The notes beneath the pieces are model-generated. The model was not told where the DNA came from and searched no databases. It worked only from the letters and a program-made list of their open reading frames with translations. A DNA stretch of 64,000 nt from Mesostigma viride (taxonomy: Eukaryota; Streptophyta; Mesostigmatophyceae; Mesostigmatales; Mesostigmataceae): contig RPFO01000584.1 of NCBI GenBank assembly GCA_009746045.1, positions 935,360 through 999,359 on the forward strand, read 5' to 3'. Shown in pieces: positions 10,149-63,378 of this stretch. A program made the translations under genes and the position numbers. Position 1 is the first letter of the stretch, and each line of letters begins with the position of its first letter.

Positions 10149-13100
10149 TCATTTGCGTTGCACGAATTTAGACACTGCACAGTCTGTGGCCAAGATGCCG
10201 CTGCTGTGGTACATGGCAGTCTCGGTCATCCTGTACTTTGTCATGCCAGATCCGGTAACCGCGGCAAGGTCATCTTCCTCCTCGCCAGTAGACCCGTCGC
10301 AGGGTTTGCCAAACGTGTGGCCTGGGGAGAAATACAGACAGGAAAAGATATGTGAATTACAGGCATCAACACGGGAGGAAAATTGGTGTGTCAGAAAAGA
10401 CCATGGCGACAAGTGCACATAGGCGCGCCTTCAACTTTCATCACCCTGGTGTGGTGTGGCATCTCACTGGCCTCTGGCAGCCTCACTAGCACGTTGTTTG
10501 CAGCGACAAAAGTATGGAATCAAGACTCAAGCCCATGCTCAATGTCTCTGATATTTACATCATGACTCACCTAAGCCAGCTAGCAGTCATAATTGCAAGG
10601 GTCAGAGACAAGGCGCAGAAGAAAGGGAGCTCTACCTATCTTGCTGGTAGCCAATTATATGCCCTCTGGTAGCTGCACCATGCTGGCATCTGCCACTCAT
10701 GGGATGGAGACAGTGAGATTAAGCTCAGCGGCACTCGAACCAACCTCAGTGCAGTGGGCAGGATTGCCGTATGTAAGGTTGCTTTGTGGCAAAAATACCT
10801 TTGCATGGCTATGAAACTGCGGGCATATGCCATACCGCAAACAGGCAGGAACAAGGATACAGAGTTAGGCTGTGACTCTGGTTGTGAGCGTGCACCGTAT
10901 CTGTATGCAGTTCTCTACGCTCCAGGCGGGCTAGGCTCTCTCCCGTTTTTTATCCTCGCTTGGTCCCCCTGGTGCCTAGCTGACTTTGCTTTATGTGCCC
11001 TAACCATACATACGTCGTCATACAGGTGTTGTCATGGCCACTCACCGAGGACACCGTGCCAGTCCGCAGAGCGGGCCAGGCGCAGGACCTTGAGGTTGAG
11101 GAAGTTGGCACCGGGGCCGTGGCCCACTTCCCAGAAGGACGCGCGCACGATGTCCACCTGCAGCGTGGCAACGGCCCCCAGTGTGAGCTTGACGCGCGTC
11201 TTGCGGCGCTCAAGCCCGAGGTCACCCTGGGCGAGTGTGGCCTTGCTGGCGTACATGTTGGTCACCTCCAGCTGGCGGGGCGAGGAATTGTAGGCAGTTC
11301 AATCAATTGGCGACCATTCATTGGCGATCAAATTGCACATGCAGACAATTCATGTCACATGAGAGGTATATCTCTGTTAGCTGATGAAGACATGGACCAA
11401 TGGCAGATAACACTCACAAGTGAAGGTGCGCCTGCATTGGGGAAACATCAAGCAAAGATGCTCAGAGTTAAGTGCTTTCCACTAACTTAGCTTAGTAGAA
11501 AAGAGGCGCACAAGCTCTCTCAAATGCCTGGGAAACATGATGTTGTGCTACTGCCGTAGGAGGTGCCGCTGCTGGGTGAAGAAATGCCCCCCATCAATAC
11601 CATTATTACACTGAACATGGCGCAGACGGCCGTGCTTGTTTCACAAGGCAACCAGTTCTCGCCGCTGGAGTCCCACACATACTCTGGAAAGAGACCTCAA
11701 TCCCCATTACTAGACAAAGCTTTGAATAGAACCTCTTGTGATTTCTGGCATATCTCGGCCACAGCTTGGAACTTAAAGCAAGGGCCCACGTTCGTACCCC
11801 ATTTACGTAGACCCGCCCGTGGTATGCCTTGAAGGCGGAGCCTGGGACGGAATCAGCCGAGATGGTGATGTTGGCGCCACGGTAGAGGATGCCCAGCTCT
11901 TGGATCCACTGCACAATTTCATGCCAGCCACGCCAGCCAAAGCATTGGCAGCCATGCCACCATGCCACCACACAAGCATTTCAAGTAGCACGGTCACTAT
12001 CTAAGGAAAAAGGAAGAAAGTGCAGGCATTGTGCAATACCATCCAGCATGCCATGCCCACCCACTCTTCCCATGCAGTCAGCATCCACCGACATGCACAT
12101 GCGAGCCGCGGTTTTACTTGCAGGCCGAGCACGCCAGCATTCAAGCCAGTGGTACATCACAGTAAAAGTATGGAAGGCATTTGTTGCTGTGATGATAAGC
12201 TTATGACACACACGTTGGAAAAGATAGCCTTACTGCAAGCCAGGATATGTGTCACGCAAGAATAGGAGGCACTGGAATGCTAAGTATCCTAAACAAGGAG
12301 AGTACACCCCCCACACACACGTTTAAGATTGGGGTCCGGCCGACCCAGGGCTGCCATCTTAAACCTAAAATCAAATCCATGGCTGATGATCTTAGAGCTG
12401 AGAGCTGTAGGCGATCTTAACCCTGACGCGGTATACCTGAGTACATAATCTCTATGGCAGACCACTGACCAGCTATTTGTACCTACTTTACGATCTTTTG
12501 CCCAAAACCAGCCCTGCGATCTTAAACCTGAAATTCCGAAATCCAGGGTCTCAAGATCTTAAACCTGGGAATCTTAAACGTGTGTGGGGGGGTGTACGAT
12601 CTAGCAGATCCTGCATGCAACATACATACATGCAAAATACAGTGACGCAGTCATAGCTTGTGGCCAGCTATAGCATAGTAGTATACTTAACAGTACATAC
12701 TAGTAGTATAATTAACAGGATCGCACATGATGTGGTTTTGCGACGTAACCATCGCATCATTCTTTTATTGCTGCTGCGGGCTGGGAAAGTGCACGCTGTC
12801 TTCTGTCCCCCACAAATATATTTTTTAACATGGTTCTTTACCACAAAGGAGAAAATCAATTACGAAAATGATAATAACAACAGTCACAACAAGCGCCTTG
12901 CAGACACAACAGATGCACATGCTGGTCGTGCAGAGCCTCACACGCAGTCCCACGCAATCTGGGGACCTTCGCCAAACCGTCTACTAGTATCAAAACATCC
13001 AGCCATGGGCCGTGGGGTACCGTGTTGTGGGCTTCGGCTTGGGCGTTCGGCGGCAGGGTGCGGGGGCCCATCATCCTCCCATTCACGTGCAGTGCCTCGC

Positions 13101-63378: not shown

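Follow-up and report, generated by a model that had tools for sequence, protein, structure and literature searches.

Can plant-type leucine-rich repeats (LRRs), a metzincin protease, HYR domains and a root-cap domain belong to one and the same gene? The question is raised by a stretch of 64,000 nucleotides of contig RPFO01000584.1 from the streptophyte alga Mesostigma viride (the whole stretch is hereafter called the window), for which a reading made from the letters alone had proposed a single protein of this composition. There is little doubt that the gene and its architecture are real, and the explanation tentatively preferred here is that one gene, a member of a paralogous family, may encode a multidomain extracellular zinc protease directed at O-glycosylated surface glycoproteins, with recognition based on the LRRs. 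Computation gave the chain of exons, an order of domains that returns in large part in paralogs, a metzincin unit of bacterial type, and a zinc site that is intact together with its Met-turn.

The gene is read as one minus-strand chain of 30 exons running from 63378 to the stop codon TGA at 10149 (6097 nt, 2031 amino acids), in which the single stop is the last codon and all 29 introns have GT-AG borders. The chain begins inside the LRR array and its true 5' end lies beyond the window; the N-terminus is outside view because the contig reads N from the window edge (24,483 of the 38,640 bases beyond it). Exons were searched on the minus strand by dynamic programming (DP), using codon usage and splice scores, with a codon table first trained on hand-picked exons. 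The resulting path had 31 exons, from 63378 to 11046, and its curation consisted of the removal of five weak exons, the addition of four and the shift of two borders; two of the added exons came from the LRR pattern, one from paralog comparison, and the last exon from direct reading of the sequence. The exons discarded as noise were 41443-41424, 40289-40049, 29459-29439 (29418-29398 in the first DP run), 26722-26657 and 13797-13765. The sequence-only reading had counted 32 exons and more than 2066 residues. Its in-frame chain and GT-AG borders are retained, the counts are not, and at least two exons differ; its extra exons may be two stretches resembling LRRs, at about 53.7 and 47.9 kb, which were excluded from the chain because they have no matching splice sites. 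The junctions 37053/31285 and 11046/10321 that it had proposed are exact in the curated model, the former already in the DP output.

Several controls were applied to this chain. Single-LRR exons of phase 2/2 were found nine times on the minus strand and never on the plus strand, with a mean of 0.005 in 200 shuffles; the pattern had been drawn from exons already seen, and it was applied unchanged to the strand and shuffle controls. A relaxed form of the same scan gave 13 minus-strand exons against none on the plus strand. When the codon table of a paralog in the same genome, g4, was used instead, the DP score was 704 on the minus strand, 59 on the plus strand of the same region and at most 11 in 30 shuffles, and 21 of 29 exons (all but the last being considered) were recovered to the base; this control is partly independent, the g4 exons having first been found with the window-trained table.

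The metzincin assignment is carried by bacterial relatives. Prokaryote genomes were searched with a degenerate DNA pattern for VTQxxQ...VPL, which gave at least 120 loci; among the matches listed, 108 loci had an open reading frame (ORF) carrying the motif and 37 of these also had HExxHxxGxxH at the right distance. A profile was built from those 37 bacterial proteins only, with no algal sequence in it. Among the 2439 ORFs of both strands of the window, the five best were the minus-strand ORFs of exons 15, 16, 17, 19 and 20, which follow the order of the gene in matching profile positions 12-75, 85-137, 156-245, 273-297 and 306-366 (E 6e-16, 5e-5, 0.03, 0.004 and 9e-6, respectively; the next ORF has 2.3), and the joined chain scores 140.6 bits over positions 13-358 of 398. 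The algal beta-sandwich scores 88 bits with a second profile, which covers the region after the protease in 25 of the 37 bacterial proteins. Since both the protease and the beta-sandwich that follows it are matched, these two, present as the sequence-only reading had listed them but separately, are better described as one unit common with the bacterial proteins. The metzincin unit is homologous to the bacterial VTQxxQ family: the identity between the alga and the Couchioplanes protein L093 is 31% over 392 residues, and in a tree confined to the 37 bacterial proteins among the matches listed and two algal genes, the algal genes group with L093 (98/88), and this group is joined by L055 and L056 of Verrucomicrobia (100/99). 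Both the zinc motif HExxHxxGxxH and a Met-turn, ALMSYC, are present in the window gene. At E <= 1, Pfam yields no hit in the chain for M66 (PF10462) or for M11 (PF05548), which we take to be the family of gametolysin; a sequence search of the PDB with the algal metzincin had no match at E <= 1, and no match was obtained by tblastn against plasmids.

The domains on both sides of this unit are recognised more directly. LRR_1 reaches 82.1 bits (Pfam cut-off 20.6, E 7.4e-25) and the C-terminal HYR pair (PF02494) 58.8 bits in two stretches (cut-off 21.7, E 6.8e-16), in agreement with what had been claimed for them. The HYR-like domain in exon 15 has no Pfam HYR match; its hhalign comparison with the last HYR gives E 5e-4 and a probability of 31% over 36 columns only. 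The stretch after the HYR pair, in exons 26 and 27, is presumably SEA-like. The window gene has the proposed order (LRR, HYR-like, metzincin, beta-sandwich, two HYR domains, DPH/root-cap), much of which is also seen in paralogs, and no report joining root cap, HYR domain and leucine-rich repeat was found in the open-access literature searched, in line with the earlier claim that the architecture is undescribed. Besides, short SFD-type repeats of about 8 residues (e.g. YPTFSFD) are inserted in exon 22, similar ones being seen in g4 and in L162 of the locus g9. Two further motifs, RRRNLLQ (37947-37786) and RRRLLQ (14277/13384), occur in the chain, and by resemblance we assume that they are possibly processing sites.

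The C-terminal part ends in a root-cap domain. The window sequence is 38% identical over 167 residues (E 1e-23) to locus L128, in which Root_cap reaches 44.6 bits, above the Pfam cut-off, and in the paralog g4 the same domain scores 22.2 bits, below it. A search of viral contigs with the root-cap part gave no match. In the same genome 53 Root_cap places were listed, all above the cut-off, whereas 0 of 14 control genomes were positive; Root_cap is apparently a large family in this genome. According to the available excerpts of PMC10796529, the DPH/root-cap domain is described as streptophyte-specific and its use in placing Mesostigma is cited; the DPH and root-cap build of the window gene agrees with that account. 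It has also been stated, in the excerpts of PMC6027541, that V. carteri and C. reinhardtii have no homolog of a root-cap protein of Penium. In the earlier description of a domain related to plant wall and LEA proteins, the words "plant wall" call for caution, since Mesostigma viride has scales and no cell wall (PMC6947507, as excerpted).

The protease query, run against the 440 Mb genome, gave at least 47 exon matches, which were grouped into nine loci including the window (the others are g2 to g9). The closest comparison, with g4, shows 57.3% identity over 1545 residues and nine of 15 exon lengths equal (one being the sum of two window exons), and the non-synonymous (dN) and synonymous (dS) divergences (NG86) are 0.36 and 1.02, a ratio of about 0.36; the gene is under purifying selection. 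Exon 15, which joins LRR, HYR-like domain and metzincin N-terminus, aligns in five loci (window, g2-g5), and three LRR exons lie upstream of g2. After the protease, the HYR query matches near seven of the nine loci (window, g2-g6 and, weakly, g7), and HYR, SEA-like and DPH exons follow in this order in g2-g6; SEA-like and DPH exons were found downstream in five of the six paralogs examined (not in g9), four of which (g2-g5) also have the last root-cap exon. The locus g9 (L163, L162) has its own HYR domain and SFD repeats downstream of the protease. In eight of the nine loci (all but g3) the zinc site is readable, and all eight keep its three His and the Glu; the window, g2, g4 and g5 have an intact zinc motif as well as an intact Met-turn. 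With much of the domain order kept in several copies, a genuine gene family seems a better reading than a product of exons joined by hand.

A number of results weigh against the preferred reading. The chain was read from genomic sequence, and its N-terminus, where a signal peptide would be sought, lies beyond the window. Pfam finds no metzincin or other protease family in the algal chain, and Root_cap (PF06830) has 21.0 bits in the window copy, under the cut-off of 27 (E 3.8e-4); on Pfam alone, the sequence-only reading is thus partly refuted by its own test, but the bacterial-family profile and the paralogs outweigh this. The fold match described below was obtained for a bacterial relative, not for the algal protein, and plain Foldseek gave no match at E <= 0.001, with the first metzincin noticed at rank 30 (the top rows, potassium channels and RhoGDI, were set aside as beta-sandwich noise). 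Within the family, the middle of the HYR query is missing in g3 and g6, which seemingly have one HYR against the two of the window, and g9 shows neither an LRR match over the roughly 8 kb that precede its protease nor a DPH/root-cap match in 10 kb downstream; because of these differences, it is concluded that the outer modules vary within the family. Finally, g6 and g7 have Asn in place of the glycine of the zinc motif, and g8 and g9 have Leu where the window and g2-g7 keep the Met of their Met-turn, so that not every copy need be active.

As for function, the chain would be secreted and act at the cell surface, where it would most likely cut O-glycosylated glycoproteins, either those in the coat of the alga itself or those of partners and prey. 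Target recognition may fall to the LRRs, and the immunoglobulin-like (Ig), HYR and DPH/root-cap beta-domains could anchor the enzyme in the matrix or form oligomers. The role as matrix-remodelling or recognition factor, put forward from the sequence, is plausible. Cleavage of O-glycoproteins is favoured because such substrates are cut by StcE and CpaA, the characterised enzymes that come nearest in fold or by local match (excerpts of PMC7542363). It is also a real possibility that the same gene, with the same architecture, encodes a general extracellular protease, digesting prey or bacterial protein or serving in defence, instead of a coat O-glycoprotease: the family profile matches serralysins, BaP1, MMPs and ADAM17 alike, which makes the substrate class unreadable from sequence, and the bacterial relatives carry varied N-terminal modules. 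However, the mucin protease StcE is the best fold match by a clear margin when a bacterial relative is the query, and a weak NCBIfam match to CpaA falls at the active site (14.9 bits against a cut-off of 750). The metzincin core may be M66/StcE-like in fold.

A wider proposal, rather doubtful at present, is that gene transfer brought an M66-like O-glycoprotease from bacteria into an early streptophyte, where it was joined to plant-type LRRs and the streptophyte DPH/root-cap domain and spread as a family of coat-remodelling or self/non-self-sensing proteases whose LRRs choose the target; no counterpart in plants of a recognition-coupled glycoprotease system of this kind was found in the open-access literature searched. 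That the chain is a catalytically dead scaffold, an adhesive matrix protein with the protease fold as a relic, is improbable: beta-rich modules make up most of the chain and four paralogs carry the substitutions mentioned above, but the zinc motif and Met-turn remain intact in the window and three paralogs, and the dN/dS ratio against g4 is about 0.36. Finally, it is very improbable that two or three neighbouring genes (LRR, protease, HYR/root-cap) have been mistaken for one by bridging long introns, in spite of exon joins that were deduced from the genome, at least four weak donors and a repeat-containing LRR-protease intron of 5.8 kb, and the two-gene reading was rejected because exons are shared between the parts (exon 15, which begins inside an LRR, at five loci; HYR and SEA-like in one exon) and order and strand are kept in g2-g6.

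Table 1. Exons of the Mesostigma viride gene in the window, in the order of transcription
Feature	Positions	Strand	Content	Basis
Exon 1	63301..63378	-	single LRR, phase 2-2; first exon within window	DP + LRR-exon scan
Exon 2	61815..61889	-	single LRR, phase 2-2	DP + LRR-exon scan
Exon 3	61052..61117	-	single LRR, phase 2-2	DP + LRR-exon scan
Exon 4	59799..59876	-	single LRR, phase 2-2	LRR-exon scan, absent from DP path
Exon 5	58949..59038	-	single LRR, phase 2-2	DP + relaxed LRR scan
Exon 6	57839..57913	-	single LRR, phase 2-2	DP + LRR-exon scan
Exon 7	56629..56700	-	single LRR, phase 2-2	DP + LRR-exon scan
Exon 8	55042..55104	-	single LRR, phase 2-2	DP + LRR-exon scan
Exon 9	51315..51404	-	single LRR, phase 2-2	DP + relaxed LRR scan
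Exon 10	46206..46277	-	single LRR, phase 2-2	DP + LRR-exon scan
Exon 11	43433..43498	-	single LRR, phase 2-2	LRR-exon scan; longer DP form 43588-43433
Exon 12	42326..42394	-	single LRR, phase 2-2	relaxed LRR scan, absent from DP path
Exon 13	37786..37947	-	LRR + Gly/Arg-rich insert	DP
Exon 14	37053..37387	-	several LRRs; donor at 37053	DP
Exon 15	30568..31285	-	last LRRs + HYR-like domain + VTQxxQ N-terminus of metzincin unit	DP + bacterial profile; same exon in five loci
Exon 16	27178..27364	-	metzincin unit, N-terminal beta-sandwich	DP + bacterial profile
Exon 17	25607..25844	-	metzincin unit; length as in g4	DP + bacterial profile
Exon 18	25178..25259	-	metzincin unit; weak donor GTTCGT; length as in g4	DP
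Exon 19	22995..23059	-	catalytic HExxHxxGxxH at 23037-23005	DP
Exon 20	22209..22492	-	remainder of catalytic domain; Met-turn MSYC at 22280-22269	DP + bacterial profile
Exon 21	21639..21779	-	post-metzincin linker; weak donor GTTTGA; length as in g4	paralog comparison, absent from DP path
Exon 22	19836..20636	-	linker + beta-sandwich; SFD-type short repeats at 20336-20187	DP
Exon 23	18848..19211	-	bacterial Ig-like beta-sandwich	DP + bacterial profile
Exon 24	17987..18063	-	beta-sandwich; length as in g4	DP + bacterial profile
Exon 25	17332..17478	-	beta-sandwich; length as in g4	DP
Exon 26	14277..15004	-	two HYR domains + start of SEA-like stretch	DP + Pfam HYR
Exon 27	13021..13384	-	SEA-like stretch + DPH start (GDPHF at 13182); weak donor GTACCC	DP end was 13087
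Exon 28	11798..11908	-	DPH domain	DP
Exon 29	11046..11271	-	DPH domain; exons 28 + 29 = one exon in g4	DP
Exon 30	10149..10321	-	root-cap C-terminus, stop TGA	read from sequence

Other features of the window lie outside the exons. An ORF of 797 residues (441-2831, plus strand) has by eye the look of a copia-type polyprotein, with no Pfam match at E <= 0.001, and overlapping minus-strand ORFs at 7483-9305 are LINE-like by eye, three of them having been scanned with no Pfam match at the same threshold. Near-identical ORF segments at 34144-33530 and 32722-32278, within the LRR-protease intron, are probably repeats. A long array of the tetranucleotide CCTT occupies 57021-57634, and a tandem duplication of 332 bases is located at 44884-45549. 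The scan of the window against Rfam at gathering thresholds gave 0 matches.

The closest known systems are the bacterial VTQxxQ metzincin proteins, which share the whole unit with the alga (beta-sandwich, HExxHxxGxxH, Met-turn, then Ig-like domains), L093, L055 and L056 being the nearest of the 37 retrieved; L093 has an HYR match within its Ig-like region (23.1 bits, cut-off 21.7). On the other hand, LRR_1 and Root_cap were not listed at E <= 0.001 in the seven such proteins scanned, whose own N-terminal modules include VWA, NHL, beta-helix and LVIVD. From StcE the algal chain differs by having no M66 match at the threshold given above, and LRR, HYR and DPH parts are, to our knowledge, not known from that enzyme. 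The M72 glycoprotease CpaA is likewise a metzincin with Ig-like domains that cuts O-glycoproteins (PMC7542363, in the same excerpts) and has the weak active-site match already mentioned, far below its cut-off; in CpaA the catalytic domain lies at the C-terminus. The DPH start and root-cap end of the chain are shared with Root_cap/DPH proteins of land plants and streptophyte algae, whereas the window copy stays under the Pfam cut-off, and the DPH chimera published in the excerpts of PMC10796529 is with an ice-binding domain, not with a protease. Gametolysin is, as far as the excerpts of PMC6704257 go, another algal metalloprotease, one that acts on the cell wall, but the chain described here has no M11 match. 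One gene family of Mesostigma combines the DPH/root-cap domain and plant-type LRRs with a bacterial-type protease that looks active and, Mesostigma viride being a deep streptophyte branch, this bears on the remodelling and sensing of early green-plant surfaces before cell walls of the land-plant type.
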